From Actinoplanes siamensis (GTDB lineage: Bacteria; Actinomycetota; Actinomycetes; Mycobacteriales; Micromonosporaceae): a stretch of 64,000 bases of DNA. The stretch lies in the NCBI RefSeq assembly GCF_016862395.1, contig NZ_BOMW01000032.1, forward strand, positions 62,001 through 126,000, in the 5' to 3' direction. The position numbers were made by a program, and so were the translations under genes. Below, one piece after another: positions 46,001 to 63,846 of this stretch (the stretch's first letter is position 1; the number at the start of each line of letters is the position of its first letter). The notes beneath the pieces are model-generated. The model saw nothing but the letters and a program-made list of their open reading frames with translations, made no database searches and was not told where the DNA came from.

Positions 46001-46097
46001 GATGGGCTGCCCGCTGGGGCAGGGCTTCCTGTTCTCCAGCCCGCTGGGGCCGACCGAGGTGCTGGCCTGGATGACCGGCGCCGCCGTCGCGGTCTGA
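43080..46097 (+). CDS. Membrane PAS-GGDEF-EAL cyclic-di-GMP protein
   Basis: 1005 residues. About nine predicted membrane helices occupy residues 1-290, then a GAF-like segment, a PAS domain from about 455, GGDEF and EAL domains. The cyclase site is intact (GGDEF at 656-660) with an RxxD product-inhibition site five residues before it (RADD). The phosphodiesterase has EAL at 783-785 and DDFGTG at 907. Both activities may therefore be real; it would make and/or destroy c-di-GMP in response to a membrane or redox cue. ATG 43080 follows GGGAGG. Confidence 0.92.
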   Translation: MPTRWPAALFGAWIVVLGVAYALTPRAHGWLILAGGLSAAAAVLVGTYRSQPDDRLPWWLLAAATGLSGLGGALGAAPSFVTDLLPWLDPAGTALLLLSYPVLAFALARFIRRRTGSDRDVPGVLDALIVTSGVALLIWTFVVGPRMSDATVGGLEQLLPVADLLCLGLLIRLALVPGRLVASGYWLGAGTGAMLVADVARASGYGQFALYATAAMAALIPSMAELTRRSAAPAAETSRGRLALLAVAALAAPTVLIGKMFQDGQVAGLFLVAVLSLLMLMLVLARMAGIMTSHRQAVTRERALREASAALVSAADAEAVGLAVRTTVAQLLPGDVPHGVVLAISIAQDEPMSPEAAAQAAVDRATGTAARLVQTRDVDWAVSVRLTQFAETLRCPMVLQDRPTGDPLVGVLHVGAPGWALRELQRSVEVLAGQVALALERIALSHEVNQRNSEAYFRTLILNTADVITILDEEDRIRYASPSALGVFGADPTGVRLPDVIHPGDRERLDGVLAAVRGGDLGEQQLDFRAVNARGTDLLLELHCRDLRADRSVAGLVITMRDVTERRKLENELIHQAFHDAMTGLANRVLFHDRLEHALARSARDGSVVGVLFIDLDDFKIVNDTLGHAVGDQLLIEVANRIAGSLRADDTAARLGGDEFAALIENVRDPLAVEDTANRILTALASPIETDAKPLYAMTSIGITTTLEATDGDELLRQADLALYVAKGAGKNQWRRYQRHLHDEMVERLELRSALGHAVSEGRFLLHYQPIVDLAGGVAVGFEALVRWAHPNRGVITPDQFIEVAEESGLIVPMGRWVLEEALRTVSEWRRVLPSGHAPYVSVNVSVRQFREAGFVEQVRAALQHTGVPPRALMLEITETLLMKDDEQRIWADLNTLREMGIRIAIDDFGTGYSSLGYLRQRPIDVVKIDKTFIDDMVASPQLVDGIVSLARSLGLTVVAEGIEDPAHRDLLVRMGCPLGQGFLFSSPLGPTEVLAWMTGAAVAV

Positions 46098-47840: not shown

Positions 47841-48188
47841 TCAGCGCTTGGCGTGGTACGCCTCGACGACGTTGCTGGGGATCCGGCCCCGTTCGGAAAC
47901 GGGGTAGCCGTTCTTGTTGGCCCACTCGCGAATGGCCTGGTTCTGGTCGCGGCTGGACCGGCTGGTCGCGGCCGGGGCGGTCCGCCGGGCAACGGTCGGA
48001 GTGGCGCCGGAACGGCCGAGCCGGGTGGCCGCGGAGAGGAACGGTTCCAGGGCCTTGCGCAGCTTGCCGGCGTTCTTCTCGGACAGGTCGATCGTGTAGT
48101 TCACGCCGTCGAGTCCGAATTCGACGGTGCGGTCGGCCTCCCCGCCGTCGAGGTCGTCGGTCAGAAGGGTAATTATCTGCTTGGCCAT
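47841..48188 (-). CDS. lsr2: Lsr2 nucleoid-associated protein
   Basis: A 115-residue H-NS-like silencer. The N-terminal dimerisation domain begins [15 protein letters not shown]; the C-terminal DNA-binding domain contains the AT-hook-like Arg-Gly-Arg (100-102) in [15 protein letters not shown]. It binds AT-rich DNA and silences foreign or specialised-metabolite genes. A strong terminator follows. Confidence 0.95.
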
Positions 48189-48775: not shown

Positions 48776-48905
48776 GGTGGTGGTCATCCGGGCTGTTCAG
48801 CGACGAAAACGCCCAGCCGGGCGTTTTCGGGTCGGGTCGGTGGTGGTCATCCGGGCCGTTCGGGACCATGACGCCCACCCGGGCGCTTTCGGCTGGGCTG
48901 GTGGT
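48776..48905. repeat. Two 63-bp direct repeats with internal hairpin
   Basis: Copies begin at 48776 and 48839 with the shared GGTGGTGGTCATCCGGGC, and a partial third (GGTGGTTAGG-like) starts near 48900. Copy one contains a perfect 11-bp hairpin, CGAAAACGCCC (48804-48814) with GGGCGTTTTCG (48819-48829); copy two keeps a weaker form. Lying 110-240 bp beyond the GMC oxidase stop, it may serve as its terminator. Confidence 0.55.
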
Positions 48906-49012
48906 TAGGTGCCCCCGTGGGCTCGGCGGATGGGAGCGGATCGGGCGTCCCCACCGCGACGTGGCAGGGCCCGGCGACCGCCCCGGACGGCATTGAGCGG
49001 ATCTCCGGTGCC

Positions 49013-50647
49013 TCAGAGCAGACGGAGAGCCGCCGGCGCGTGCGCGGGCACCGCCGGCGAACGCGGCGCCACCGGCGTCACCCGCTGGTAGGGCTCGCCG
49101 GGAGCGGGCCGCGGATCCGCGTCCCCTTTGTTCGGCCAGAGCGACATGGCGCGCTCCGCCATGGCGGTGATGGTCAACGACGGATTGACCCCGAGGTTCG
49201 CCGGGACGGCCGACCCGTCCACCACGTGCAGCCCGGGGTAGCCGAAGACCCGGTGATACGGATCCACCACGCCCGAGGCCGGCGAGTCCCCGATGGTCGC
49301 CCCGCCCAGGATGTGCGCCGTCATCGGGATGTTGAACACGTCCCCCACGGTTCCGCCGGGGAACCCGCCGATTCGGTCGGCGATCCGGCGGACGGCCTCG
49401 TGCCCCACCGGGATCCAGGTGGGATTCGGCTCCCCGTGCCCGGGGCTGGTCGTCAGCCGTCCGCGCCGGGTTCTGCGTACCGTCAGGGAATTGTCCAGGG
49501 TCTGCATCACCAGCGCGATGATGGTTCGCTCGCTCCACCGCCGCACCGAGATCGAGTAGGCGAGCACCATCGGGTGCCGGATGCAGTTGAACAGGAATCT
49601 GAGCGGCCGGGGCACCCGCCCGCCGCCGTCCACCAGCAGCGTGGAGAGCAGGCCCATGGCGTTGCTGCCCGGCCCGTAGCGGACCGGCTCGATGTGGGTG
49701 TTCGGGTCGGGGTGGAACGACGAGGTGATCGCCACTCCGGTGCTGAACGGCGCGTCCGGCACATCCTTGGTCTCCGCCCCGAGCAGCGCCTCGGAGTTGG
49801 TCCTGGTCAGCCAGCCGAGACGTGCCGAGACGGCGGGCAGCACCCCGGTGTCCCGCATGGTGTGCAGCAGCCGTTGCGTGCCCAGCGCCCCGGCGGAGAG
49901 GATCACCTGGCGGGCGGTGAACGTGCCGGTGCGGGCCGACACGATCCATCCGTCCCCGTCCGGCCGGATGGCGGTGACCTCGGTGTCCGGGTGCACCGTG
50001 GCACCCTTGCTCTCCGCGAGGTACAGGTAGTTGACGTCCAGCCGGTTCTTGGCGCCCACCCGGCAGCCGATCATGCAGTTCCCGCACTCGGTGCAGCCGG
50101 TGCGGGCCGGGCCGGCGCCGCCGAAATAGGGATCGGGCACGGTCTTCCCGGGTTCTGCGAAGAAGACCCCGACGGGGGTACGGCGGAACGTCCGGCCGAC
50201 GCCCATGTCCTCGGCCACCTGCTTGATCACCACGTCCGAGGGCGTCATCGTCGGCTGCTCGGTCACGCCGAGCATCCGGGACGCCTGGTCGTAGTGCGGC
50301 GCCAGCTCCCCCGCCCAGTCGGTGATGCCGGCCCAGTGCGGATCCGCGAAGAATGTGGCGGGCGGCTGGTAGAGCGTGTTGGCGTAGACCAGCGAGCCGC
50401 CGCCCACCCCGGCCGCGGACAGCACCACGATGTCCTTGAGCAGGGTGATCCGCTGGATGCCGCGCATCCCGAGCTTCGGCGCCCAGAGGAAGTTCCGCAG
50501 GTCCCAGGACGTCTTCGGCAGCGTCTCGGGGGTGAAGCGGCGGCCGGCCTCGAGCACGCCGACCCGGTAACCCTTCTCGGTCAGCCGCAGTGCGCTGACG
50601 CTGCCGCCGAAGCCGCTGCCCACGATCACGATGTCGTAGTCCGTCAT
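49013..50647 (-). CDS. GMC oxidoreductase (cholesterol-oxidase/ChoD-like)
   Basis: A 544-residue FAD enzyme with N-terminal FAD motif VGSGFGGSVSALRL, the Cys-rich TGCTECGNCMIGCRVGAKN typical of the ChoD group, and C-terminal DGSAVPANLGVNPSLTITA. It may oxidise a hydroxyl of a sterol or other lipid alcohol. No signal peptide. It is the last gene of a minus-strand run that includes lipid synthesis and export genes, so its true substrate may be the lipid made there. Confidence 0.85.
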   Translation of the reverse strand: MTDYDIVIVGSGFGGSVSALRLTEKGYRVGVLEAGRRFTPETLPKTSWDLRNFLWAPKLGMRGIQRITLLKDIVVLSAAGVGGGSLVYANTLYQPPATFFADPHWAGITDWAGELAPHYDQASRMLGVTEQPTMTPSDVVIKQVAEDMGVGRTFRRTPVGVFFAEPGKTVPDPYFGGAGPARTGCTECGNCMIGCRVGAKNRLDVNYLYLAESKGATVHPDTEVTAIRPDGDGWIVSARTGTFTARQVILSAGALGTQRLLHTMRDTGVLPAVSARLGWLTRTNSEALLGAETKDVPDAPFSTGVAITSSFHPDPNTHIEPVRYGPGSNAMGLLSTLLVDGGGRVPRPLRFLFNCIRHPMVLAYSISVRRWSERTIIALVMQTLDNSLTVRRTRRGRLTTSPGHGEPNPTWIPVGHEAVRRIADRIGGFPGGTVGDVFNIPMTAHILGGATIGDSPASGVVDPYHRVFGYPGLHVVDGSAVPANLGVNPSLTITAMAERAMSLWPNKGDADPRPAPGEPYQRVTPVAPRSPAVPAHAPAALRLL

Positions 50648-50679
50648 CGCTTCACCTAAGCATTACTCGCCAGTAACCG

Positions 50680-52275
50680 CTAGGGGCGCCGGTAGATCCT
50701 CATGGAGTATCCAACGTGGTCGATCTCGGTGCTGGTGGCGATCAGGCCCCGCAGCCGTACGCCGGCGAGCGCCACCCGCGAGTCGGAGAGCACCAGGAGA
50801 CCGTGGACCTGGTCGTCCGGCACGGTGTACGGGTCGGACGCGTCGATGCCGTAGTAGGCCGGAACGCCGCTGCCCTTGTAGACCAGCCACACCTGTTCGC
50901 CCGGATAGTCCGTCCGGAGCTTGTGCGCCAGCCGGGCCAGGTCCTGACCCCAGTCGACGTTGGAGTCGTGCAGGTTGCGGTGCGTGTTCGCGGTCCCGCC
51001 GAAGGCCTCGTTCGAGTACGGCAGATAGTACGGAAACGTCCGCAGCGAGCTGACCGCGACGAACAACGCCAGCACGGCCGCGGTGATCCGCACCCACCGG
51101 ACCTCGATCAGCGCCACCGTGCCGGCCGCCACCGCCAGGAAGAACGGCAGGAAGATCGCGTACCGCGAGCCGTAGTCGCGCGAGCCGGTCATCGCGACGA
51201 CCAGCAGCACAGCGGAGACCGGCAGCAGGTAGAGCGCGGCCGCCCGCAGCCGCGGCAGGAAGATCATGGTGAGCGCGCCGGCCGCCCAGAGCGCCAGCGC
51301 CCCCAGCGGAGTCTTGATCAGCATGGCGGCCGGCAGATAGAACCACAGGTTGCCCCGGTAGCCGTGCCCGAGCAGGAACCCGTTGTACGCCTTTTGCTCC
51401 AGCTGTAACTGCTTCAACAGCCCGTCCCGGTACGCCTGCGGGAACGGCAGCCAGTCCACGGCCAGCCCGGTCAGCCCGCCGGGATGCGGCAGGTCCGGCG
51501 GCGGCGTCCAGCGCAGGTGCGGATCGACGGCCAGATACACCACCCAGACCACCGCCACCGCGATCAGTCCGGTTCCGATCAGCGCTCCGGCGGCCGCCGG
51601 AAGCCGTCGCCTGGTGGCGGAGACCCACATCGACAGCGCGGCGAGCAGCACCAGCAGGGGCACGGCCGGAAGTGTGCTCGCCCGGGTGGCCAGTGCCGCC
51701 CCGAGCGCGACCCCGGCCAGCGGCAGGTAGCGATACGGCCGCTCCCGTCCCCGCCAGGCCAGCCAGAACGCGGTGAGCAGCATCCCGGCGGCCGGAACGT
51801 CCAGGGTGGCCAGCGATCCGTGCGCGATCACGTCCGGCGAGAACGCGTAGAGCGCCAGCGCCAGCAGCCCGCCGGCCGGTCCGGCCAGGTCCCGCGCGAA
51901 CGCCAGCACCACCAGCCCGAACAGCAGCGTCAGCAGGATCATCGGCAGCCGTGCCGCGAGCAGCAGGCGGAACGGGTTGTTCCCGCTCTCGTAGAGCAGG
52001 TGCCGCCCGAGCGCCGTCTGGCTCCCCGGATACGCCGGGTCGAGCTCCCGCACGTCCTCGAAGGCCAGCCCGGCCGCCATGATCAGCTTGCCGAGCGGCG
52101 GGTGCTCCGGGTTGAACCGCAGGCTGTGCTGCTGGGTGTAGACCTCGGCGGTGGCCAGGTAGACCGGCTCGTCGATGGTCGGCGTCTGCTGCACCGCAGT
52201 GGTGACCATGGCGAACGCCATCTGCCCCAGCATCACGACGACAGCGAGCAGGTAGACCAGGCGTCGTCGCGGCAT
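50680..52275 (-). CDS. GT39-type (PMT/ArnT-like) membrane glycosyltransferase
   Basis: A 531-residue protein with about 10-12 membrane helices and the GT-C layout: an early acidic pair (TPTIDEPVYLATAEVY) in the first extracytoplasmic loop, and EHPPLGKLIMAAG. Such enzymes use polyprenyl-phosphate sugars to glycosylate proteins or lipids outside the membrane. Its C-terminal loop has a LHDSNVDWGQDL segment common in this family. Gap of 20 bp from the upstream synthetase gene. Confidence 0.83.
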   Translation of the reverse strand: MPRRRLVYLLAVVVMLGQMAFAMVTTAVQQTPTIDEPVYLATAEVYTQQHSLRFNPEHPPLGKLIMAAGLAFEDVRELDPAYPGSQTALGRHLLYESGNNPFRLLLAARLPMILLTLLFGLVVLAFARDLAGPAGGLLALALYAFSPDVIAHGSLATLDVPAAGMLLTAFWLAWRGRERPYRYLPLAGVALGAALATRASTLPAVPLLVLLAALSMWVSATRRRLPAAAGALIGTGLIAVAVVWVVYLAVDPHLRWTPPPDLPHPGGLTGLAVDWLPFPQAYRDGLLKQLQLEQKAYNGFLLGHGYRGNLWFYLPAAMLIKTPLGALALWAAGALTMIFLPRLRAAALYLLPVSAVLLVVAMTGSRDYGSRYAIFLPFFLAVAAGTVALIEVRWVRITAAVLALFVAVSSLRTFPYYLPYSNEAFGGTANTHRNLHDSNVDWGQDLARLAHKLRTDYPGEQVWLVYKGSGVPAYYGIDASDPYTVPDDQVHGLLVLSDSRVALAGVRLRGLIATSTEIDHVGYSMRIYRRP

Positions 52276-52295
52276 CGGGCAAAGATAGCCCGCGG

Positions 52296-53975
52296 TCAGC
52301 CGGTGAACTCGCCCGGCGGAGCCGCGGCCGGATCGGCGTGCTTCTCCGCCTCGGCGGCCCGCAGCTCGACCCGCCGGATCTTGCCGGAGATCGTCCTGGG
52401 CAGGTCGGTGAACTCCAGGCGGCGGATCCGGGCGTACGGCGGCATGTGCTCGCGGGCATGCGCGAAGATCGCCGCCGCGGTCGTCTCGTCCGCCGCCCAC
52501 CCGTCGGCGAGCAGCACGTACGCCTTCGGCACGGCGAGCCGGACCGGGTCGGGTGAGGGCACCACCGCGGCCTCCACCACCGCCTCGTGCTCGATCAGCA
52601 CACTCTCCAGCTCGAACGGCGAGATCCGGTAGTCGGACGCCTTGAACACGTCGTCGGTCCGCCCCACGTACGTGATGTAGCCGTCCTGGTCCCGCGCCGC
52701 CACGTCCCCGGTGTGGTAATAGCCGCCGGTCATCCGCTCGACGGTGAGCTCGGGGTCGCCGTGGTAGCCGGCCATCAGCCCCACCGGTCGCGGGTCCATC
52801 GCCACGCAGATCTCGCCCTCGCTCGCCTCCCGCCCGGTCACCGGGTCGAGCAGCGCGATCCGGAACCCGGGCGCCGGCCGGCCCATCGACCCGGCCTTGA
52901 CCGGCTGCCCGGGGGAGTTGGCGATCTGCACGGACGTCTCGGTCTGCCCGAACCCGTCCCGGACCGTCACTCCCCACTTCGCCGCGACCTGCTCGATCAC
53001 CTCGGGGTTGAGCGGTTCGCCGGCGCCCACCGCGATCCGCGGGGGCGTCGTCAGCTCGGTCAGGTCGGCCTGGATCAGCATCCGCCACACCGTGGGCGGC
53101 GCGCAGAAGCTGGTCACCCCGCAGCGCTGCATCTCGGCCATCAGCCGCCGGGCGTCGAACCGGGTGTAGTTGAAGATGAACACGCAGGCCTGCGCGTTCC
53201 ACGGGGCGAAGATGTTGCTCCAGGCGTGTTTGGCCCAGCCCGGCGACGAGATGTTCAGGTGCACGTCGCCCGGGCGCAGGCCGATCCAGTACATCGTGGA
53301 GAGGTGCCCCACCGGGTACGACACGTGGGTGTGCTCGACCAGCTTGGGCTGGGCCGTGGTGCCGGAGGTGAAGTAGAGCAGCAGCGTGTCCCCGGCCCGG
53401 GTCTCGCCGTCCGGGGTGAACTCGGCACTTGCCCGGCCGGCCGAGCGGTAGTCGAGCCAGCCATCGGCCGGCCCCACCGCGATCCGGGTGACCCCCGGGT
53501 CGGCCTGGACGAACTTGCCGGCCGCCGAGGCCATCGCGATCACGTGCCGGGCGCCGCCCCGGGCCACCCGGGCCGCCGTGTCGGCCGGGCCGAGCAGCGG
53601 GGTGGCCGGGATCAGCACGGCGCCCAGCTTGATCCCGGCGAGCACGGTCTCCCAGAGCTCCACCTGGTTGCCGAGCATCACCACGATCCGGTCGCCGCGC
53701 CGCACGCCCTGCTCGCGCAGCCAGTTCGCCACCCGGTTGGAGCGCTCGGACATCTCGGCGAACGAGACGCGCTGCTCGCTGCCGTCCTCCTCGACGATCC
53801 AGAGCGCCGGCTGGTCGTTGCCCGCGGCGATCACGTCGAACCAGTCGAGGGCCCAGTTGAACCGGTCCGGCCGGGGCCAGGCGAAACCGTCGTACGCGGC
53901 GGGGTAGTCCTCGCGGTGGGCGAGCAGGAAGTCGCGCGCCCGCCGGAATGCGGCGGTCGCCTCGGTCTCGGCCAT
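52296..53975 (-). CDS. Acyl-CoA synthetase (AMP-binding, MACS-like)
   Basis: A 559-residue adenylate-forming enzyme: P-loop YFTSGTTAQPK, DGFGQTETS, GEICVAM, YYHTGDVAARDQDGYITYVGRTDD and the catalytic C-terminal lysine in RTISGKIRR. It activates a carboxylic acid (probably medium/long chain) to an acyl-CoA. In this cluster it is the natural supplier of the starter acyl group. ATG 53975 has GGGAGGAG upstream. Confidence 0.9.
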   Translation of the reverse strand: MAETEATAAFRRARDFLLAHREDYPAAYDGFAWPRPDRFNWALDWFDVIAAGNDQPALWIVEEDGSEQRVSFAEMSERSNRVANWLREQGVRRGDRIVVMLGNQVELWETVLAGIKLGAVLIPATPLLGPADTAARVARGGARHVIAMASAAGKFVQADPGVTRIAVGPADGWLDYRSAGRASAEFTPDGETRAGDTLLLYFTSGTTAQPKLVEHTHVSYPVGHLSTMYWIGLRPGDVHLNISSPGWAKHAWSNIFAPWNAQACVFIFNYTRFDARRLMAEMQRCGVTSFCAPPTVWRMLIQADLTELTTPPRIAVGAGEPLNPEVIEQVAAKWGVTVRDGFGQTETSVQIANSPGQPVKAGSMGRPAPGFRIALLDPVTGREASEGEICVAMDPRPVGLMAGYHGDPELTVERMTGGYYHTGDVAARDQDGYITYVGRTDDVFKASDYRISPFELESVLIEHEAVVEAAVVPSPDPVRLAVPKAYVLLADGWAADETTAAAIFAHAREHMPPYARIRRLEFTDLPRTISGKIRRVELRAAEAEKHADPAAAPPGEFTG

Positions 53976-54039
53976 GTCTCTCCTCCCAGCGGGACAGGCC
54001 CCGGGCCGGGGTTCTCCGGAACACGGCCTGGTGACCTGG

Positions 54040-54876
54040 TCAGTCTGCCCCGCGCAGACCGCCCCCGCCAGCAGGTAGCAGCACTTGCCGCCGGGCGGCG
54101 GCGAGCCGGGCCGGGTGGGCCTTGGTCGTCCGGTACAGCTTGACGATCACGAGGAGTTCGAAGAGCAGCAGCGCCGCGCCCGCGAAGATCGTCACCGGGA
54201 AGATCAGTCCGGTCAGCGGGCCGATGATGTAGACGAACATCTCGTACTCGATGCCGCTGAACAGGTGGGTCCGGATCCGGTTGCGCCGCAGCCAGGCGCC
54301 GGCCCGGCGCCGCAGCGGGCGTGGGCCCCGGCCGGGCCCGGCGGGCGCCGGCGCGAGCGGGTCCGGGGTGGTCAGCGACTCCAGCTCGTCGGTCATCCCG
54401 CGGCGGACCTTGGACACCTGGCTGCCGTTGAGATACCGGATCAGGTCCAGGAAGATCGCGACGGCCATCAACCAGAGGTACGACACGTCGCCGTCGCGCA
54501 GGTACTGCCCGCCGAACAGGGTCAGCGCGCAGAAGAACACCCGCACCCGGTCGAGCACGAAGTCCAGCCATTGGCCGAAGACCGTGCCGGTCCCGTTCAG
54601 CCGGGCGATCTTCCCGTCCATGCAGTCGACCACGAAACTCAGGTGGAACAGGACCGCGCCGAGGACCAGGGCGCCCCGGGCGAAGGCGACCATCGCCCCG
54701 GCCCCGACGGCTGTCGCGACAAGCGTCAGCGCATTGGGGGTGATCCATCGGTACGGAGCCACGAGGCGCACCAGCCGGGACGCCAGCGGGTCGACCAGGA
54801 GCACGGTCCACCAGGCGTCGATCGGCTTGTAGGTGCGCTCCCGGATCTCCTGCAGGGACACTCTCAGTGGCGGCAC
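54040..54876 (-). CDS. CDP-alcohol phosphatidyltransferase
   Basis: A 278-residue membrane enzyme with the complete CDP-AP motif: VVDCMDGKIAR, then GQWLD and FVLD, supplying Asp84, Asp87, Asp105 and Asp109. It moves a phospho-alcohol or phosphatidyl group from a CDP-activated donor to a second alcohol. GTG 54876 (VPPLRVSLQEIRERTYKPIDAWW) matches the usual N-terminus and has AAGG upstream; a TTG at 54951 would run through an AT-rich promoter-like stretch. Confidence 0.85.
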   Translation of the reverse strand: MPPLRVSLQEIRERTYKPIDAWWTVLLVDPLASRLVRLVAPYRWITPNALTLVATAVGAGAMVAFARGALVLGAVLFHLSFVVDCMDGKIARLNGTGTVFGQWLDFVLDRVRVFFCALTLFGGQYLRDGDVSYLWLMAVAIFLDLIRYLNGSQVSKVRRGMTDELESLTTPDPLAPAPAGPGRGPRPLRRRAGAWLRRNRIRTHLFSGIEYEMFVYIIGPLTGLIFPVTIFAGAALLLFELLVIVKLYRTTKAHPARLAAARRQVLLPAGGGGLRGAD

Positions 54877-55045
54877 GTTAAACCTTAAAGTCCAGTAAAT
54901 ACCATTTGTCCACCTGGTGTCTTCACGTTCCCCACCAGAGGTGACAATCAACCAGAATACCGGCGATACGCCGCCGTTCCCCCGGACGAGGGACGGGACC
55001 GTGCCTCGCCTCGCCTCGCGCTCGCGCGACCCGCGCGAGGGGCCT

Positions 55046-57268
55046 TCAGTGCTCGCGCAGCCCGAGCCGGGCGTGCAGGGCCCGCAGCGGCCGCGGCGCC
55101 CACCAGTTCCACCGGCCGGCCAGCCGCATGAACGCCGGCACCAGCACCGGCCGGACCAGCAGCGCGTCCAGGATGATGGCCAGGCTGGCGCAGAGGCCGA
55201 AGAACTGGATCAGCGACACCCCGGAGGTGAGCATCGCCAGGAACGACACCGAGAGGATGCCGGCCGCCGCGCTGATCACGCGGACGCTGCGCGACATGCC
55301 CTCGACCACCGCGGTGCGCAGGTCGGCGCCCTGCTCGTGGCGCTCGATCACCCGGGACAGCACGAACACCTCGTAGTCCATGGACAGCCCGAACGCGACA
55401 CAGAACAGCAGCACCGGGATGGCCACCGCGAGCGGCGTCCCGGTCTGGCCGAGCACCTCGGAGAGATGGCCGTCCTGGAAGACCCAGACCGCCACGCCGA
55501 ACACCGCGCTCATCGTCAGCGTGTTCAGCAGCAGCGCCTTGAGCGGCAGCAGCACGCTGCCGGTGAGCAGGAAGAGCAGCAGGAACGTGGTCACCGCGAT
55601 CAGGATCCCGGCGACCGGCAGTCGCGCGCCGATCGAGCCGGTGATGTCCACCAGCTGCGCGGGCGGCCCGGTGACCAGCACCGGGACCTCGGCCGGCACC
55701 GGCACGGCACGGACCGCGCGGGCCAGCGCGGCGCCCTCGTCCGAGTACGGCTCCACGCCGCTGACCACCGAGAACCAGGTCGTCTCGCGGTTGACGAAAC
55801 GCGGGTCGGGCCGGCCCGGGGCCACCACGATCACCCCGTGCCGGTAGGTGCCCACCATGCTGTCCACCCGGGTCACCCCGGGCACCTCGGAGAGCCGCGC
55901 GGCGTAGTCGGCGACCCGGATCCGCGCGTCCGTCCCGGCGCCCCAGTGCTCGGCGACCACCACTGTCGCCCCGCTCCCGGTGTCCGAGAACCGGGTCCGC
56001 AGGGTCTCCGCGACGACCCGGCTCTCCGCCGTCCCGGGCAGCACCCGGTCGTCGGCCAGCCCGAAGCGGACATGGGCCAGCGGCACGGCGAGCAACGCCA
56101 AGATCAAGATCACCGGAGCGGCGGTACGGACCGGACGGCGCAACACGAACGCCGCGAGCCGTGCCCAGAACGTCGAGTCGGCCCGCGGCTGCCACAGCGA
56201 CCACTTGTCGATCCGGTGCCCGAGCAGCGCCAGCAGCGCCGGCAGCACCAGCATCGCGGCGCCCACCGTGGTCACCACCACGGCGATGCCGGCGAAGGCG
56301 AAGGAGCGCAGGAAGTACTGCGGGAACACCAGCAGGCTGCACAGCGCCACGGCCACGGTCGCCGCGCTGAACGCGATGGTGCGCCCGGCCGTGCGCATGG
56401 TGTTGCCCAGCGCCGTGGCCAGGTCCGCTTCGAGCCGCCGCTCCTCGCGGTACCGGGAGACGAACAGCAGGCTGTAGTCCACCGCCAGGCCCAGGCCCAG
56501 CGCGGTGGCCATGTTGACCGAGAAGACCGACACGTCGGTGATCGCGGCCAGCAGCCGCAGCGTGCCCAGCGTGCCGACGATCGAGAAGATCCCGATCAGC
56601 AGCGGCGCTCCGGCCGCCCCGACCGTGCCGAAGACCAGCAGCAACAGCACCAGTGTGATCGGGATGGCGATCGACTCGGCGGTGGCCAGGTCCCTGGTGA
56701 CCTGGTCGTTGATGTCGTTGTTGATCTGAGTGAAGCCGCCGAAGGAGACCCGGACCGGCCCCTGCGCCACCGCGAGCTCATCGTGCAGCGTGGCGACCCG
56801 CCCCGCGCTGGTGTTCTCGTCGCCGTCCACGTGGACCAGCACCAGGCCCGCGTCCCGGGACCGGCTGGCCAGCTGCGGCACCCGGCCGGTCCAGTACGAC
56901 CCGGCCACCGTCACCGCGTGGTCGCCCGCCAGCCGGTCGGTGATCTGCCGTGCGACCGCGGTGATGTCCGGGTCGTCGACGCTGCCGCCGGGCTTGGAGA
57001 TCAGCACGACCAGATTCGGGTCGGCGGCCCGGAAACGCTCGGCGAGGACCTGCCGGCCGCGTACCGAATCGGAGGCCGGATCGTCGAAACCCCCGGTCTT
57101 GAGCGCGCCGACCAGGCCGCCGCTGAAGGCCACCGCGAGCGCGGCCAGCAGCAGGGCGACGAGCAGGACGAGCTTGGGGCGGCGGGCGACGAACCGGACC
57201 ACCGGTCCGGGGGCGGCGAACTGGTCGCCGTCCCCGGACCGGGGGCGGGTGGGTGTCGATGAGGTCAT
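55046..57268 (-). CDS. MMPL/RND-type lipid exporter
   Basis: A 740-residue MMPL-family transporter: two blocks of six membrane helices each behind a large extracytoplasmic loop. The second helix cluster of each half carries the family motifs (GLGLAVDYSLLFVSRYREE; AFGLSMDYEVFVLSRVIE) with the proton-relay Asp-Tyr pairs. In mycobacteria MMPL proteins export polyketide-derived and trehalose lipids. It starts 14 bp after the PKS-AOS stop, so the two are co-transcribed and the exporter probably moves the product. Confidence 0.92.
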   Translation of the reverse strand: MTSSTPTRPRSGDGDQFAAPGPVVRFVARRPKLVLLVALLLAALAVAFSGGLVGALKTGGFDDPASDSVRGRQVLAERFRAADPNLVVLISKPGGSVDDPDITAVARQITDRLAGDHAVTVAGSYWTGRVPQLASRSRDAGLVLVHVDGDENTSAGRVATLHDELAVAQGPVRVSFGGFTQINNDINDQVTRDLATAESIAIPITLVLLLLVFGTVGAAGAPLLIGIFSIVGTLGTLRLLAAITDVSVFSVNMATALGLGLAVDYSLLFVSRYREERRLEADLATALGNTMRTAGRTIAFSAATVAVALCSLLVFPQYFLRSFAFAGIAVVVTTVGAAMLVLPALLALLGHRIDKWSLWQPRADSTFWARLAAFVLRRPVRTAAPVILILALLAVPLAHVRFGLADDRVLPGTAESRVVAETLRTRFSDTGSGATVVVAEHWGAGTDARIRVADYAARLSEVPGVTRVDSMVGTYRHGVIVVAPGRPDPRFVNRETTWFSVVSGVEPYSDEGAALARAVRAVPVPAEVPVLVTGPPAQLVDITGSIGARLPVAGILIAVTTFLLLFLLTGSVLLPLKALLLNTLTMSAVFGVAVWVFQDGHLSEVLGQTGTPLAVAIPVLLFCVAFGLSMDYEVFVLSRVIERHEQGADLRTAVVEGMSRSVRVISAAAGILSVSFLAMLTSGVSLIQFFGLCASLAIILDALLVRPVLVPAFMRLAGRWNWWAPRPLRALHARLGLREH

Positions 57269-57282
57269 GGAGGCGGTTTCTC

Positions 57283-60200
57283 TCAGGCGGGCTGCGGCAC
57301 GCGGGCCGGGTCCAGGTTCCGGGCCAGCAGGTCCACGGTCGTCTCGATGTCCTCGACGGTGTGCTCGGCGGTGATGAAGAACCGCAGCCGGGCCAGCCGC
57401 TCCTTCACCGCCGGGTACATGATCGGGTTGACGCTGATCCCGTTCTTGAACAGCGTGTCGGCCAGCTTCAGCGCCTGCACCGAGTCGCCGGTGATGCACG
57501 GGATGACAGGCGTGCCGGCGCTCGGCCCGGTGTCGATCCCGGCCCGCTTGGCCAGGCGCAGGAAGGTTGCCGCCCGGTCGTGCAGCACCTTGAGCCGCTG
57601 CGGCTCCTCACGGATGATGTGCAGCGCGGCCAGCGCGGCGGCCGCGTTCGGCGGGCTCATGCCGGCGCTGAAGATGAAGCCCGGCATGGTGTAGCGCAGG
57701 TACTCGATCAGCTCGCGTCGGCCGGCGAGGTAGCCGCCGCAGCTGGCCAGCGACTTGGACAGGGTGCCCATCCAGATGTCCACGTCGCCGCGGTCCACCC
57801 CGAAGTGCTCGCCGACGCCGCCGCCGCGGGCGCCGAGCACTCCGATGCTGTGCGCCTCGTCCACCATCAGCAGCGCGCCGTGCTTCTTCTTCAGCGCGAT
57901 CAGCGCCGGCAGGTCGCAGATGTCGCCGTCCATGCTGTAGACGCCCTCGACGATGATCAGCACCCGCCGGTAGCGGTCGCGGATCCGGGTCAGCAGCGCG
58001 TCCAGAGCGGCCAGGTCCTGGTGCGGGAACGGCTGGCGGTTGGCCCCGGAGAGGCGGCAGCCCTGCAGGATGCTGTCGTGCGCGAGCGCGTCGTGCACGA
58101 TCAGGTCTTCCGGGCCGACCATGTGGCCGATGACCCCGACGTTCGTGGAGTGCCCGCCGAGCAACGAGATCGCGTCCTCGGCGCCGACCAGGGCGGCCAG
58201 GCTGCGGTCCAGCTCGTCGTGCAGGGCCCGGTTGCCGGACAGGATGCGGGCGGCGGAGACCGAGGAACCGTACCGCTCGACCGCCTCCTTCACCGCGTAG
58301 TTCACCATCGGGTGCCCGGACAGACCCAGGTAGTTGTAGCTGGAGAAGGAGATGATCTGGCGGCCCTGCACCGAGGTCCGGCTGTTGATCACGCTGTCGT
58401 GGACGATGTAGTACGGGTTCGCCACCTTGACCCGCTCCAGGATGTCGCCGCGCGCCTCGAACTGCACGATCTCCGGCAGCTTGGTGACGTCGGCGACCTC
58501 GGGCCGGCGGGCGTCGTCCCGTGGGACCAGGGCCTGCTGGGCCTCGGGAACGGAGGCCGGAGCGGCCGGCGCCGGGGCCGCCTCGGCCACCGGGGTGCCG
58601 CCGCCCAGCGACTGCGTCAGCAACTGCACCAGCTCCCGGACGGTGGCGACGCCGAACACCTGCTCGGGCGCCAGGTCGAGATCCGGCCAGCGGCGCTTGG
58701 CCGCCGCGATCAGCTCGGCCGTCATGATCGAGTCGAAGCCCAGATCGGCCGCGAACGTCTGCTCCGGCCGGACCATGTCCGCCGGATAGGCGCTGATCTT
58801 GCCGACCATCGCGGCCACCTCCGCGGCGACCTCGGCGTACAGCTGGTTGCTCTCGGTCTTCTCCGGAGCCGGCTTCTGCGCCGGCACCGAGACGCGGACC
58901 GCGGGCGGCGCGGCGTTCTCCGGCTTCGCCGCGGCCGGGGCCGGCGCCGGCGGAGCCGCCGGGAGGGCCGGGGCCGGCACCAGGTCGGCCGGGTCGGCGC
59001 CGATGCCACGCAGGACCGCTAGCTGCTCCCGCAGCAGGGAGATGACGTCGTTCACGGGATTCTGTTCTCCGTTACTGATCGCGGCCGCCGGCAGCGCCGC
59101 GCGCGCCGGGGCTTCGGGGGGACGGGGGTGACTGTCGTCAGTTGTGCGGATGAATCGGGCCGGTGTGGCGCCCGGTGCGGTTCGCCGGATCGAGTAGTGC
59201 TGCGTGGCCAGCGGCGACGGCGGCAGCGTGACCAGCGGGATGCTCAGCCCCTCGAACAGCGGCGTGAGGTCCACCGGCACGCCCGCCACGGCAAGTCGGC
59301 CCAGGCCCTCCAGCAGGGCGTACCCGTCATCCGGCTGGGACGGCATCAGCGCGATCGAGTCCAGGCCGCGCGCCGCCGGGGTCTGCGCGGTCATGCCCAG
59401 CAGCGCGTCCCCGGCCGAGACCTGGACCAGGATCTTCGCGCCCTCGGCCACCGCCGTGTCCACCGCCTCGCGGAACAGCACCGGCGCCGAGCCCTGCCGG
59501 CCCCAGAGGGCGCGCAGCGACTCCGGGTCGGCCGTGGCCGCCGGGTCCACGCTGGAGACGAAAGTACGGATCGGCTTGCGCACCGGCAGGCGCGCGACGT
59601 GCGCGGCCACCCGGGAGTCGACCTCTGCCATCAGCGGCGAGTGGAAGGCGTGCGAGACGCGCAGCGGCACCACCGGGACCTCCCGTTCCCGGCAGCGGTC
59701 CACCAGCCGGCCGACCGCGTCCCGGTGCCCGCTGGCGACGATCTGGGACGGGTGGTTGTAGCAACCCGCCCAGACCCCCTCGATGCCGGCGCACAGCTGC
59801 TCGAACCCGGCCGCGTCGATCCGGACCGCGGCCATCGTGCCGGGCGGCGGCTCCAGGCCCGCGGTCACCGCGGCGCCGCGCTCGATCAGGAACTCGATGC
59901 CGTCGTCCGGGGTCAGCGCCCCGGCGGCGACCGCCGCGGCCAGCTCGCCGACGCTGTGCCCGAGCGTGATCGCCGGGGTCACCCCGAGGTCGGCGAGCAG
60001 CTGGGTCATCCCGATCCCGGCCACGCCGAGGCCGGGCTGGCAGATCCGGGTCGCGCTGACCCGCTCCTCGTCACCCGGCCCGGGCGTGTCGCAGAGCAGG
60101 TCGGTGACCGGCTCGCCGGTGCGCTCGTCGACCTGGTCGGCCAGCGGGCGGACGTGCTCGGCCAGCGCCGGGAACCGGGCGACCAGGTCACGCAGCACGC

Positions 60201-61929
60201 CGGGGCGCAGCGAGCCCTGGCCGGGGTAGAGGAAGGCCAGGGAGCGCTGCTCCGGCGCCAGCGGGGCGGTGCTGGCGTACACCCCGGGGGCCAGGCGCCC
60301 GGTGGCGTCGCCGGCCAGCTCGCGGGCCGCGGCGGCGAGGCGCTCGGCCAGCTCCTCCCGGGTCCGGCACATCACCGCCAGCCGGGCGCCGAGCAGGGTG
60401 CGGCTGGCCATCGTGCGGGCCACCGCCGCAGGCGTCAACTCCGGGTCGGCCCGGATCAGACCCGACAACCTCCGGGCGTACGACGTGAGCAGGTCCCCGT
60501 CGTCGGCGGAGAGCAGCACCACCCACGGGCGGTCCGCCTCGTCCCCGTCGTCCTCCGGTTCGGGCGCCTCGCTCAGCACGGCGTGCACGTTGGTGCCGCC
60601 GAAGCCGAACGAGCTGACGCCCGCCCGCCGCCTGTCGTCGGCCGGATGCGCCCAGGCCCGCGGCTCGGTGGCGATCGCCAGCCCGGCCTCGGCCAGGGGC
60701 AGCTCGGCGTGCGGGTCCATGGCCGCCGGCTGCGGCGGGACGACCCGGTGGTGCAGGGCCAGCGCGGTGCGCAGCACGCCCGCGGCGCCGGCCGCCGGCA
60801 GCGTGTGCCCGATGGTGGCCTTGCCCGAGGACAGGTAGCAGGGCCGGTCCGCGGACTTGGCGCGCAGCCGGCGGATCGCCTCGACCTCCACCTTGTCGCC
60901 GACCGTGGTGCCGGTGCCGTGCGCCTCCAGGAAGTCGATCGCGCCCGGCTCCACCCGCGCGTCCCGGTAGGCGGCGCGCATCGCCGCCTCCTGGCCCTCC
61001 GCCTTCGGGGTCATCGGGCCGGCGCCCTTGCCGTCGTTGGCGGTGCCGATGCCGTTGAGCACCGCGTAGATGCGGTCCCCGGCCTCCAGCGCGTCGTCCA
61101 GCGGCCGGAGCACGGCCAGCGACCCGCCCTCGCCGAGGACGAAGCCGTCAGCCCGGGTGTCGAACGGGCGGCACACCCCGGCCGGCGACAGCGCGCCCAC
61201 CCGGGAGAAGCCGACGAGCGCGTTCGGGGTGAGGTTCAGGAACACGCCGCCGACCAGGGCCGCGTTGCACGAGCCGGTGCGCAGATGGTTGACCGCCTCG
61301 TGCATGGCCACCAGCGCGGACGAGCACGCCGCGTCCACGGCGAACGACGGCCCGCCGAGGTCGAGCAGCTCGCTGACGGTGGCCGGGGCCATGTTCAGCA
61401 GCGAGCCGGCCATCGAGAACGACTGCGGCGGGTCGATCGCCGCCTTCGCCGCCTCGGCGATCGCCTTGAGCAGCTCCGGGTCGTTCGCGTTGGGCGACAG
61501 CGACCCGTCGGCGAGCAGGCTGGCGGTCAGCCGGGCGCCGGTCATGTCCTTGTAGTCGGCGGTGCTCAGCCCGACGAAGACCCCGGTGGTCGCCCGGTCG
61601 AACGGGCGTCGCTCCCAGCCCGCGTCCTGGACCGCTTCCCGGGCCAGGTCGACGAGGAGCCGGTGCTGCGGATCCATGGCCTTGGCGCGCCGCGGCGGGA
61701 TGCGGTGGTGCAGGGCGGCGAACCTCTCGACCTCGTCAAGAAAGGCCACCCGGTCGGTGTACGTCGAATGATGGTCACGAAAATTCGTCGAATAGAAAGT
61801 TTCGTGATTCCAGCGCGCCGGCGGTACGGGGCGGAATTGATGAGCGGCGGTCAGTGAGTTCGCCCAGAACTCGACCACGTCGCGCGCCCCCGGAAAACGG
61901 CAGGATAGGCCGACGATGGCAATGTCCAA
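57283..61929 (-). CDS. KS-AT-ACP-alpha-oxoamine synthase megasynthase
   Basis: A 1548-residue fused enzyme. Ketosynthase (about 1-425): catalytic Cys near 202 (DAACSS), His in EAHGTGTT and TIGHTLPAAG. Acyltransferase (about 530-830): GHSVGE near 657 and HAFH near 760, the malonyl-CoA type. ACP (about 1020-1100): DLGFDSIM. C-terminal PLP alpha-oxoamine synthase (BioF/KBL/SPT type, about 1150-1540) with Lys near 1391 in TLSKSLAS. There is no KR, DH, ER or TE. It should add one malonate unit to an acyl starter, then release it by decarboxylative condensation with an amino acid as an alpha-aminoketone, as in prodigiosin RedL. TTG 61929 gives the usual KS start; the frame is open to GTG 62031. Confidence 0.9.
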   Translation of the reverse strand: MDIAIVGLSCRFPGARDVVEFWANSLTAAHQFRPVPPARWNHETFYSTNFRDHHSTYTDRVAFLDEVERFAALHHRIPPRRAKAMDPQHRLLVDLAREAVQDAGWERRPFDRATTGVFVGLSTADYKDMTGARLTASLLADGSLSPNANDPELLKAIAEAAKAAIDPPQSFSMAGSLLNMAPATVSELLDLGGPSFAVDAACSSALVAMHEAVNHLRTGSCNAALVGGVFLNLTPNALVGFSRVGALSPAGVCRPFDTRADGFVLGEGGSLAVLRPLDDALEAGDRIYAVLNGIGTANDGKGAGPMTPKAEGQEAAMRAAYRDARVEPGAIDFLEAHGTGTTVGDKVEVEAIRRLRAKSADRPCYLSSGKATIGHTLPAAGAAGVLRTALALHHRVVPPQPAAMDPHAELPLAEAGLAIATEPRAWAHPADDRRRAGVSSFGFGGTNVHAVLSEAPEPEDDGDEADRPWVVLLSADDGDLLTSYARRLSGLIRADPELTPAAVARTMASRTLLGARLAVMCRTREELAERLAAAARELAGDATGRLAPGVYASTAPLAPEQRSLAFLYPGQGSLRPGVLRDLVARFPALAEHVRPLADQVDERTGEPVTDLLCDTPGPGDEERVSATRICQPGLGVAGIGMTQLLADLGVTPAITLGHSVGELAAAVAAGALTPDDGIEFLIERGAAVTAGLEPPPGTMAAVRIDAAGFEQLCAGIEGVWAGCYNHPSQIVASGHRDAVGRLVDRCREREVPVVPLRVSHAFHSPLMAEVDSRVAAHVARLPVRKPIRTFVSSVDPAATADPESLRALWGRQGSAPVLFREAVDTAVAEGAKILVQVSAGDALLGMTAQTPAARGLDSIALMPSQPDDGYALLEGLGRLAVAGVPVDLTPLFEGLSIPLVTLPPSPLATQHYSIRRTAPGATPARFIRTTDDSHPRPPEAPARAALPAAAISNGEQNPVNDVISLLREQLAVLRGIGADPADLVPAPALPAAPPAPAPAAAKPENAAPPAVRVSVPAQKPAPEKTESNQLYAEVAAEVAAMVGKISAYPADMVRPEQTFAADLGFDSIMTAELIAAAKRRWPDLDLAPEQVFGVATVRELVQLLTQSLGGGTPVAEAAPAPAAPASVPEAQQALVPRDDARRPEVADVTKLPEIVQFEARGDILERVKVANPYYIVHDSVINSRTSVQGRQIISFSSYNYLGLSGHPMVNYAVKEAVERYGSSVSAARILSGNRALHDELDRSLAALVGAEDAISLLGGHSTNVGVIGHMVGPEDLIVHDALAHDSILQGCRLSGANRQPFPHQDLAALDALLTRIRDRYRRVLIIVEGVYSMDGDICDLPALIALKKKHGALLMVDEAHSIGVLGARGGGVGEHFGVDRGDVDIWMGTLSKSLASCGGYLAGRRELIEYLRYTMPGFIFSAGMSPPNAAAALAALHIIREEPQRLKVLHDRAATFLRLAKRAGIDTGPSAGTPVIPCITGDSVQALKLADTLFKNGISVNPIMYPAVKERLARLRFFITAEHTVEDIETTVDLLARNLDPARVPQPA

Positions 61930-62287
61930 TGATGTTCCCCATGCTTGCGTGCCTGAAGGTCCGCCGGAAAGCGGCCAGGAAAGCGCGGGACAAGCCGATG
62001 GATGATCGTCGGCGATGCGCTTCGTGAGCACACGCTAACGCACGACGCCCAGATTGCACGGAAGGCGCCTCGGCGTTTTCACGGGACCTGTTGCAGGTTC
62101 TTGTCAAAAGTTAGAACAGTGCCATGCCAACATGTGTGATCTTTTTGTTCGGGTCACTCGTCAGTGGTACCCCCGTGTCGCGATCCGGGCTTCGGCGCGT
62201 TGTTCCGGTGCAGGCCGGGACGGGGGTACGTCACCCGCGCGTGTGTCGATTTGGGAAATTAGCCCGGTTCGCCTAGTTTTGTGCGCC
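61930..62287. other. Divergent promoter region between the megasynthase and a small secreted protein
   Basis: About 360 bp, distinctly less GC-rich than the flanks around 62040-62170. It includes TTGACA-like hexamers on the minus strand near 62100 but no convincing partner -10. No gene is supported. It presumably contains the promoters of both flanking genes. Confidence 0.5.
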
Positions 62288-62707
62288 ATGAAGCACGCAA
62301 CCATGCGGTGGCTGGCCGCAGCCGTGGCGCTGGCCGGCATCGCCTCCGCCAGCCCCGCCCAGGCAGCCCCGTCGGATCCCCCCTTCGGTCCCATTCGGAT
62401 GAACGCGACCGCCTACTACGGAACGCTCGACGTCATCGCTCGCGAGACGCTCGGGCTCAAGGCCCAATTCACCACCTGGGACGGTCACCCGGTGGCCGGC
62501 CTGCCGATCCAGTTCACCACCACGGGTGAGCGCTTCCCGCTCTGTGAGGCGACCACCGACTTCGGCGGCTGGGCCGAGTGCAAGAACGGGCCCGTCCCGC
62601 CGCCCGTCTCGCTGGCGAACCTGCTGGTCAACGGCTACGACGCGGTCTGGCAGGGCAACCGGCGGTTCGCGCCGGTGAGTGCGCACAACAACATCGGTAT
62701 CGGCTGA
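62288..62707 (+). CDS. Small secreted Ig-like-domain protein
   Basis: A 139-residue exported protein: signal peptide MKHATMRWLAAAVALAGIASASPAQA, then one domain resembling a bacterial Ig-like (Big-type) strand pattern (LGLKAQFTTWDGHPVAGLPIQFTT, then two cysteines CEATTDFGGWAEC). ATG 62288 is chosen for the signal peptide. The role is unknown. It sits between the megasynthase and the desaturase but on the other strand. Confidence 0.72.
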   Translation: MKHATMRWLAAAVALAGIASASPAQAAPSDPPFGPIRMNATAYYGTLDVIARETLGLKAQFTTWDGHPVAGLPIQFTTTGERFPLCEATTDFGGWAECKNGPVPPPVSLANLLVNGYDAVWQGNRRFAPVSAHNNIGIG

Positions 62708-62829
62708 CCGCTGCCGGACCCGGGACGCGGCGGACCGCGTACCGGTGAATCGGGAAATGCGGCCGTGAGGTGCGTGCTCACCTGGTGGCGCACCCGCGGC
62801 CGCCCCCGGATCCCCGCTCCCGGCGGGGC

Positions 62830-63846
62830 TCAGCCGCCGGCCCGTCCGGCGCGCAGGTCGGCGCCGACGTCGTGCAGGTGGCGCAGCGCCTGCCGGTACG
62901 ACTCGACGAGTCCGGTCATCTCATAGGGCACCCCGATCTCCGCGCAGTAGTCCCGCACCAGGGGCTGGGCCTTGCGCAGGTTGGGCGTCGGCATCGCGGG
63001 GAACAGGTGATGCTCGATCTGGTAGTTCAACCCGCCCAGGGCCACGTCGGTCAGCCAGCCGCCGCGGACGTTCCGTGAGGTCAGCACCTGCTTGCGGAAG
63101 AAGTCCTCGGTGCCGTCCGGATGCGGCATCCCCTTGTGGTTGGGCGCGAAGGTCAGACCCAGATAGACCCCGAACAGCGCCTGGTGCACGACCAGGAACG
63201 CCAGCGCCTGCGCCGGGGTGAGCACCAGCAGCAGGGCCGCGGCGTAACCGGCGAAGTGCGCGCCGAGCAGCGCCCACTCCGCGCGGCGCCGCTTCACCGT
63301 CTTGTCCAGCAGGGCCCGGACGCTGTCCCGCTTCAACGAGATCCCGAGCAGGGTGAGCAGCGGGAAGAAGAGCCACGCCTGATGCCTGGCCAGGAAGCCC
63401 TTGCCGGCCGCCGCCTCCCGGGACCAGACCAGCACGCCCGGCCCGACGTCCGGGTCCAGGTCGTCGTGGTTCGGGTTGGCGTGGTGCTTGGTGTGCTTGT
63501 CCATCCAGTATCCGTAGGACATCCCGATCGCCAGGTTGCCGGCCAGCAGGCCGGCTCGGGCGCTCGGCGCGTTGGTGCGGAACACCTGCCGGTGCGCGAG
63601 GTCGTGCGCGACCAGCGCCACCTGGGCGTTGACCACGGCCAGGAAGACCGCCACGGCCAGCGTCCACCAGGACGCGCCGACCAGGAGGAACGCCGCCCAC
63701 CCGGCGATCAGGGCGAGCGTCACCAGGCTCAGGCGCACGGCGTAGTGGCCGGGACGGCGGCGCATCAGGCCGGCCGCGTTGATCCGGCGGTTGAGTTCGG
63801 CGAAGTCGCTTCCGGCGGCCCGCGGCCGCTCCGTCGTGGTGGTCAT
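62830..63846 (-). CDS. Membrane fatty acid desaturase
   Basis: A 338-residue di-iron acyl-lipid/acyl-CoA desaturase with three histidine boxes: HDLAH (81-85), HTKHH (118-122) and QIEHH near residue 276, with about four membrane helices between them. The glutamine in the third box is typical of front-end/linoleoyl-type desaturases. It introduces a double bond into a fatty acyl chain. A palindrome and the start of another gene lie divergently upstream. Confidence 0.9.
   Translation of the reverse strand: MTTTTERPRAAGSDFAELNRRINAAGLMRRRPGHYAVRLSLVTLALIAGWAAFLLVGASWWTLAVAVFLAVVNAQVALVAHDLAHRQVFRTNAPSARAGLLAGNLAIGMSYGYWMDKHTKHHANPNHDDLDPDVGPGVLVWSREAAAGKGFLARHQAWLFFPLLTLLGISLKRDSVRALLDKTVKRRRAEWALLGAHFAGYAAALLLVLTPAQALAFLVVHQALFGVYLGLTFAPNHKGMPHPDGTEDFFRKQVLTSRNVRGGWLTDVALGGLNYQIEHHLFPAMPTPNLRKAQPLVRDYCAEIGVPYEMTGLVESYRQALRHLHDVGADLRAGRAGG

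Follow-up and report, generated by a model that had tools for sequence, protein, structure and literature searches.

A polyketide synthase-oxoamine synthase and its MMPL partner as a candidate make-and-export unit, probably set into an older lipid locus of Actinoplanes siamensis

We have analyzed a stretch of 64,000 nucleotides of Actinoplanes siamensis DNA (the window), corresponding to bases 62001-126000 of the 156,493-base contig NZ_BOMW01000032.1 in a genome of 8.22 Mb. At 49013-61929 six contiguous minus-strand genes encode a fused polyketide synthase-alpha-oxoamine synthase (PKS-AOS), a transporter of the MMPL family and four further enzymes, and a preliminary description of this DNA had placed all six in a single route to an amino lipid. 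On balance we favor a composite block, in which PKS-AOS and MMPL form a make-and-export unit, accompanied by a small divergent gene (T12), that has been set into an older envelope-lipid locus. The first unit would comprise PKS-AOS, MMPL and the Ig-like T12, and the second the desaturase, CDP-alcohol transferase, acyl-CoA synthetase, GT39 and GMC genes of the older neighborhood. Insertion of the first into the second probably happened a single time, in an ancestor shared by 11 of the species sampled. The genes are listed here; T12 and the desaturase were missing from the preliminary description and are relevant to the comparison.

57283-61929, minus strand: PKS-AOS, a KS-AT-ACP-alpha-oxoamine synthase of 1548 amino acids (Pfam and NCBIfam domains, active-site motifs, TTG start)
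55046-57268, minus strand: MMPL/RND exporter of 740 amino acids, the partner of PKS-AOS (PF03176)
54040-54876, minus strand: CDP-alcohol phosphatidyltransferase (CDPOH), putative older locus (PF01066 and motif)
52296-53975, minus strand: AMP-binding, MbcS-like acyl-CoA synthetase (ACS), putative older locus (PF00501)
50680-52275, minus strand: GT39/PMT_2-like membrane glycosyltransferase (GT39), putative older locus (PF13231 at 33.4 bits and PF02366 at 28.6 bits, both above cut-off)
49013-50647, minus strand: cholesterol-oxidase-like GMC oxidoreductase (GMC), putative older locus (PF05199 and PF00732)
62830-63846, minus strand: fatty-acid desaturase (DES), putative older locus (PF00487, 144 bits)
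62288-62707, plus strand: T12, a small Ig-like protein of 139 amino acids, divergent from PKS-AOS

The two units are separable within the genus. A search of 67 Actinoplanes genomes with the AOS end (E ≤ 1e-120) gave matches in 17, of which 11 have the arrangement of the window (type A: the window itself, L040-L044, L046, L058, L065, L067 and L094), five carry PKS-AOS elsewhere and one is distant. At all five of the elsewhere loci (L088-L092) PKS-AOS is adjacent to MMPL, and none of CDPOH, ACS, GT39, GMC, DES or Lsr2 was found in these 20-kb stretches (tblastn, E ≤ 1e-5). They occupy two places, with L088, L089, L090 and L092 beside a VWA/AAA operon and that of genome G102 (L091) separate. MMPL adjoins PKS-AOS in each of the 16 Actinoplanes loci where PKS-AOS identity is at least 70%.

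The older neighborhood was followed by taking the stretch around the best CDPOH match from 38 of 60 other Actinoplanes genomes, and from two genomes of other genera, where CDPOH stands alone. Nine of the 38 loci are of type A, 14 are of type B (CDPOH with DES, GT39 and/or GMC) and 15 are of type C (CDPOH with ACS in 14 and with GT39 in four), so that 29 of the 38 contain neither PKS-AOS nor MMPL. DES lies upstream of CDPOH in 13 of the 14 type B loci; the type B exceptions are L053 (no DES match), L045 (no GT39 match) and L076 (a short GMC piece alone), and absences in L062, L068, L075 and L060 are weaker because the stretches are short. Genomes with the pair elsewhere have a CDPOH locus of type B lacking PKS-AOS, MMPL and ACS (G076, G140, G143 and G146) or of type C (G102). 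Relatives of GMC (E ≤ 1e-180), GT39 (E ≤ 1e-130) and ACS (E ≤ 1e-180) occur in 67, 61 and 52 of the 67 genomes, respectively, in tallies that include some paralogues located elsewhere in the genome. Type A forms one clade of 11 rows in the CDPOH tree (support 100/100); it is grouped with full support in the ACS tree and weakly (68/18) in that of GMC, L062 and L068 being omitted from all three.

The pair also recurs outside the genus. Our first outside set came from the best 80 loci in a scan of named genomes. Among the matches listed, 17 named loci have a KS-AT of at least 41% identity (over 94% of the query; in two pieces in L115) preceding AOS, and MMPL lies near PKS-AOS in 12 of these, divergently in L102. 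The second set was drawn from 392 Streptomyces-like genomes, 65 of which contain AOS at E ≤ 1e-120; 20 loci were taken from the 27 highest rows, and MMPL lies near PKS-AOS in 17, divergently in three. The two counts overlap because three loci recur (L185/L103, L189/L111 and L193/L105). A rough chance of finding MMPL in any 20-kb stretch is 0.02 if 9 Mb of DNA is taken to contain ten MMPL genes, with relatedness uncorrected. No relative of CDPOH, GT39, GMC or DES was found in the 37 outside loci, and the sole ACS-like match among them is in L110, at 25% identity and 52 bits. AOS was found in two of 296 genomes of a phylum sample, including that of the window. Adjacency within Actinoplanes and recurrence beyond it thus lend support to the earlier suggestion that a PKS and an MMPL make and export a product together.

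In a single six-gene route, which might hold for the type A clade if not more widely, ACS would load the starter and PKS-AOS make an aminoketone, to be tailored by CDPOH, GT39 and GMC and exported by MMPL. The check proposed for it, a search for the same order in other strains, was positive in 11 of the 67 genomes, all of one clade; the seam between the units is short or overlapping in L058 and L041, and all the genes lie on one strand. However, the halves are apart in five genomes of the genus, and the outside loci with MMPL likewise have the pair without the other four; the other genes lack the pair in the 29 genus loci noted above, so all-or-none occurrence of the six fails. Genes of the second unit are present in 52-67 of the 67 genomes compared with 17 for PKS-AOS. 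ACS, the starter enzyme of that route, goes with CDPOH and without a PKS in 14 of the 15 type C loci. We have therefore rejected the single route as our principal explanation, the halves being separable, and regard it as unlikely.

The MMPL protein of the composite block is nearest to MmpL3 among solved chains (up to 311 bits, with MmpL4/5 at most 111), and it fails the MmpL3 equivalog test (NF052608, 361.9 bits against a cut-off of 1400). Paralogues within its own genome are at most 41% identical to it, compared with 71-86% for the partners of PKS-AOS inside the genus and 43-60% for those outside. As an MmpL3-like protein it would presumably move the product out of the membrane. A different role would follow if the product were a diffusible small molecule such as an antibiotic, signal or pigment precursor, and MMPL a pump of the ActII-3 type instead of an exporter of lipids. 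There is a match to the actII family TIGR00833 (182.3 bits, cut-off 874.7), RedL provides an AOS-PKS precedent from an antibiotic pathway, and in L102 and L181-L183 genes for GFO/IDH/MocA, acyl-CoA dehydrogenase, AvrD-family and NADH:flavin oxidoreductase proteins lie beside the pair. We consider this quite unlikely, given the greater similarity to MmpL3 and the confinement of accessory genes to subgroups. On clustering the neighbors of 28 loci (the 20 Streptomyces-like and eight named) the recurring families were a PPTase (10/28), an Acg-type oxidoreductase (6/28) and a GFO/IDH/MocA oxidoreductase (6/28); the eight named loci were picked for having MMPL, so that their MMPL count is not evidence. 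L181-L183 and a fourth locus, by family most likely L102, have genes for an acyl-CoA dehydrogenase, an AvrD-family protein and an NADH:flavin oxidoreductase together. No accessory enzyme is common to all 28 loci, and none was recognized beside the Actinoplanes pairs.

T12 accompanies the pair closely within Actinoplanes. It is divergent from PKS-AOS in 16 of 16 loci, and at E ≤ 1e-6 it is found in 16 of the 67 genomes, exactly those with PKS-AOS and MMPL (Fisher p = 1.5e-14 for co-occurrence with the PKS, relatedness ignored); G254 is the sole PKS-positive, T12-negative genome. The N-terminus resembles a signal peptide as judged by eye, and 27 of 28 aligned relatives have a Big_1 match at E ≤ 0.1. 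An AlphaFold model (mean pLDDT 81.8) has a beta fold that we read as Ig-like; a fold search of the PDB gave no match at E ≤ 0.001. T12 was rejected as a universal partner of PKS-AOS. It was found in none of 32 further PKS-AOS loci compared (31 outside the genus and that of G254), and relatives occur in five of the 392 Streptomyces-like genomes, one of which (G596) also has an AOS match, on another contig.

PKS-AOS carries KS, AT, ACP and aminotransferase class I/II (AOS) domains on one chain with intact sites: the KS C/H/H residues, GHSVGE and HAFHS in AT, DLGFDS in ACP, and the lysine and DEAHS of AOS. A Pro/Ala-rich linker lies between AT and ACP, and the relatives of the PKS in named Actinoplanes are 85-88% identical. 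The AT motif HAFH is, we assume, malonyl-specific. The AOS domain scores 348.9 bits against BioF and 328.5 bits against SPT, each below its own cut-off. The protein is a single module with no KR, DH or ER match at E ≤ 0.001, so the chain would keep its beta-keto group.

From these domains we predict chemistry of the RedL kind, in which an amino acid condenses with a beta-ketoacyl chain to give an aminodiketone or a 2-alkyl-4-keto-pyrroline. The starter would be an acyl group of the fatty-acid pool, loaded onto KS and lengthened by one unit from malonyl-CoA with no reduction step; AOS at the C-terminus, dependent on pyridoxal phosphate, would then free the beta-ketoacyl chain in a decarboxylative condensation whose partner is a small amino acid (serine, alanine or glycine). 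Closure of the resulting 1-amino-2,4-diketone could then give the 2-alkyl-4-keto-pyrroline, or its 3-hydroxypyrrole tautomer, as for RedL in prodiginine synthesis. Substrates, chain length, ring closure and product are in this sense predictions from domain content. The residue equivalent to V79 of ThAOS is Ala in PKS-AOS, Ser in many relatives and Thr in all four of the RedL rows shown. We did not use it as proof of amino acid choice, since Ala fits several amino acids.

RedL, of the undecylprodigiosin pathway, is reported to convert dodecanoic acid to 4-keto-2-undecylpyrroline (PMC12654105). Among our loci L201 encodes a 2298-residue AMP-ligase-ACP-KS-AT-ACP-AOS protein with two PP-binding stretches, in a cluster with RedH (1648.5 against a cut-off of 1350); we label it RedL from this architecture and its neighbors. 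PKS-AOS shares with RedL the non-reducing KS-AT-ACP-AOS order on one chain, its AOS being 52-53% identical to those of the RedL-like proteins of five loci (52% for L201). Unlike L201, it begins at KS and has neither the N-terminal AMP-ligase nor the accompanying ACP. Its AOS motif is SAARILSG where RedL has SATPLLFG. MMPL adjoins PKS-AOS, but was found in none of the five RedL-like loci, which were taken from lower rows of the 392-genome sample and were the only ones there checked for MMPL. No red enzymes were found among the scanned neighbors of PKS-AOS in the window, so that it does not lie in a prodiginine cluster. The loci of Nocardia/Rhodococcus type (L112, L113, L118, L119, L123, L137, L166 and L208) also have KS-AT with an AOS, 60-64% identical to ours; they differ in being preceded by genes for FAAL and ACP (identified by a scan in L118, by clustering in the others and by place in L208), in giving no MMPL match, and in a KS of 37-40% identity. 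That group spans Nocardia, Rhodococcus, a metagenome-assembled genome (MAG) of Solirubrobacteraceae and G489, and looks like a split RedL arrangement.

An alternative product is a sphingoid base. The PKS SgaA and the AOS SgaB of Pseudomonas fluorescens MYb115 are reported to make C24, C26 and C28 sphinganines (PMC12134224), and like our pair they provide a compact PKS and AOS set for, in their case, a long-chain amino lipid. By analogy AOS would use L-serine, with later reduction to sphinganine and addition of a phospho head. The AOS domain is 53-58% identical to stand-alone AOS proteins, two of which (L141 and L174) lie downstream of a PKS with the same orientation, and its V79 equivalent is small; the V79A form of ThAOS is reported to be most active with L-Ser (PMC11906848). 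In the Pseudomonas system, however, SgaB is described as a separate protein and SgaA as iterative (PMC12134224), whereas the AOS of the window is fused. The reductase SgaC has no recurring counterpart among the neighbors seen here: there is no SDR among the recurring neighbors scanned, and one SDR-looking family, outside that scan, occurs in five of 34 loci, distant from the PKS. Chain reduction is presumably carried out by the SgaA PKS itself, and we have seen that PKS-AOS is a single module without a reducing domain. The RedL-like beta-keto product is favored over an SgaAB-like sphinganine for this reason, and we judge the sphingoid reading improbable. Of the amino lipids first envisaged the ketopyrroline type stands as a possibility, and a ring derived from the beta-keto chain is more likely than a sphingoid base because no reducing domain was found.

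A number of observations weigh against the composite block, the sufficiency of the pair or its RedL-like product. The type A order is unbroken in all 11 members with the six genes co-directional, and little or no gap separates the units in two of the ten loci measured (-13 bp in L058 and 7 bp in L041, the starts being uncertain). Co-transcription and later coupling in the type A clade are therefore possible; flanking genes are kept as well, and so the order does not discriminate between the readings. That the pair moved into the CDPOH locus, and not out of it, we infer from the wide spread of the second unit's genes. MMPL is absent from five of the 17 named loci (L101, L105, L108, L115 and L117), from three of the 20 Streptomyces-like loci (L184, L193 and L195), and from beside the distant PKS-AOS of G254 (L093, 56% identity). 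The subgroups with accessory enzymes include the AOS sister of the Actinoplanes clade, and the pair need not be the whole pathway, since it has further enzymes beside it in four Streptomyces-like loci that the AOS tree places near ours. Lastly, in sequence identity the AOS domain is no nearer to RedL than to stand-alone AOS, the AOS tree does not settle the branching among RedL, stand-alone AOS and the PKS-AOS clade, and the V79-equivalent Ala differs from the Thr of the RedL rows.

We advance tentatively a broader proposal, that a two-gene PKS-AOS and dedicated MmpL3-like transporter across several actinobacterial orders makes undescribed exported envelope lipids of alkyl-ketopyrroline type (or serine-derived hydroxymethyl-pyrrolinols), for which the secreted Ig-like protein of Actinoplanes might act as carrier or receiver. 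In mycobacteria the PKS PpsE is reported to work with the exporter MmpL7 (PMC1238737). The product there is PDIM, unlike that proposed here. To our knowledge that system contains no AOS. The open-licence PMC literature yielded nothing joining oxoamine synthase, polyketide synthase and Actinoplanes, or 8-amino-7-oxononanoate synthase, polyketide synthase and MMPL, and among the matches listed there for MMPL/RND transporter/polyketide none names oxoamine synthase; on oxoamine synthases and polyketide gene clusters in Streptomyces it included the SgaAB work. Judged from its position in L046, the nearly identical assembly of SE50, the PKS-AOS copy of Actinoplanes sp. SE50/110, the industrial acarbose strain, seems to fall within antiSMASH region 18 (7,710,720-7,782,831), reported as NI-siderophore, T1PKS with desferrioxamine E as the closest known cluster (PMC11626248), an annotation that gives the copy no product. 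If our reading is right, PKS-AOS and MMPL would make up a small, portable set of core genes for nitrogen-containing lipids in actinobacteria other than mycobacteria, one that could readily be moved into a laboratory strain. The same reading would caution against a common error in reading clusters, in which a neighborhood conserved throughout a clade is mistaken for one pathway.

Domain searches and a frame check confirmed the families previously given for the six genes. The gaps from PKS-AOS to GMC are 14, 169, 64, 20 and 32 bp, as described before except for the second, given as 170 bp. Third-codon-position GC is 0.89-0.97 in the PKS, MMPL, CDPOH, ACS and GMC frames. The longest open reading frame in the GT39 region, 50663-52459, was rejected as the GT39 gene, being in the wrong frame (third-position GC 0.5); the correct frame ends at 50680. 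An alternative GTG start for PKS-AOS at 62031 is likewise open. The CDPOH motif D..DG..AR.{8}G...D...D is intact, ACS scores 361.6 bits against NF047394 (below the cut-off of 850), and GMC fails the cholesterol oxidase family test (NF058674, 546.8 bits against a curated cut-off of 850). A scan of 48900-62900 gave no sigma-70-type promoter sites and four terminator-like sites against 2.3 expected.

Several minor features were observed. Downstream of the block lie genes for Lsr2 (47841-48188) and a PAS-GGDEF-EAL protein (43080-46097); Lsr2 is downstream in ten of the 11 type A loci, and the L058 stretch stops short of its position. CDP-alcohol transferase matches number 1-7 per genome in G000 and other genomes of the genus, some paralogues lying near genes that by eye look like glycerol kinases (L097-L100). 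T15 (L045 11456-11848 and relatives; ~130-216 residues, no NCBIfam match) separates CDPOH from GT39 or ACS in several loci of types B and C; no gene for it was called in the clustered loci of type A. Among the matches listed, stand-alone AOS proteins ~55-59% identical are common in Planctomycetota MAGs (for example L121, L122, L130, L147 and L169), and in L141 and L174 the PKS is upstream on the same strand, as in SgaAB. A further AOS-PKS subgroup (L093, L136, L159, L172, L177 and L180; ~1090-1190 amino acids as called) has two small genes, with a MAB_1171c-like putative transporter in five of the six loci; one member of the subgroup is in Actinoplanes genome G254. The four loci L102 and L181-L183 also carry TetR, Acg and AAA genes beside PKS-AOS, and the AvrD-family gene (295 bits, scanned in L181) next to a maker of beta-ketoacyl chains is worth a look. 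A divergent sensor kinase gene (Pfam, L009:51-1244) with a regulator-like gene beyond suggests, by analogy with DesK/DesR, membrane-lipid regulation of the desaturase.

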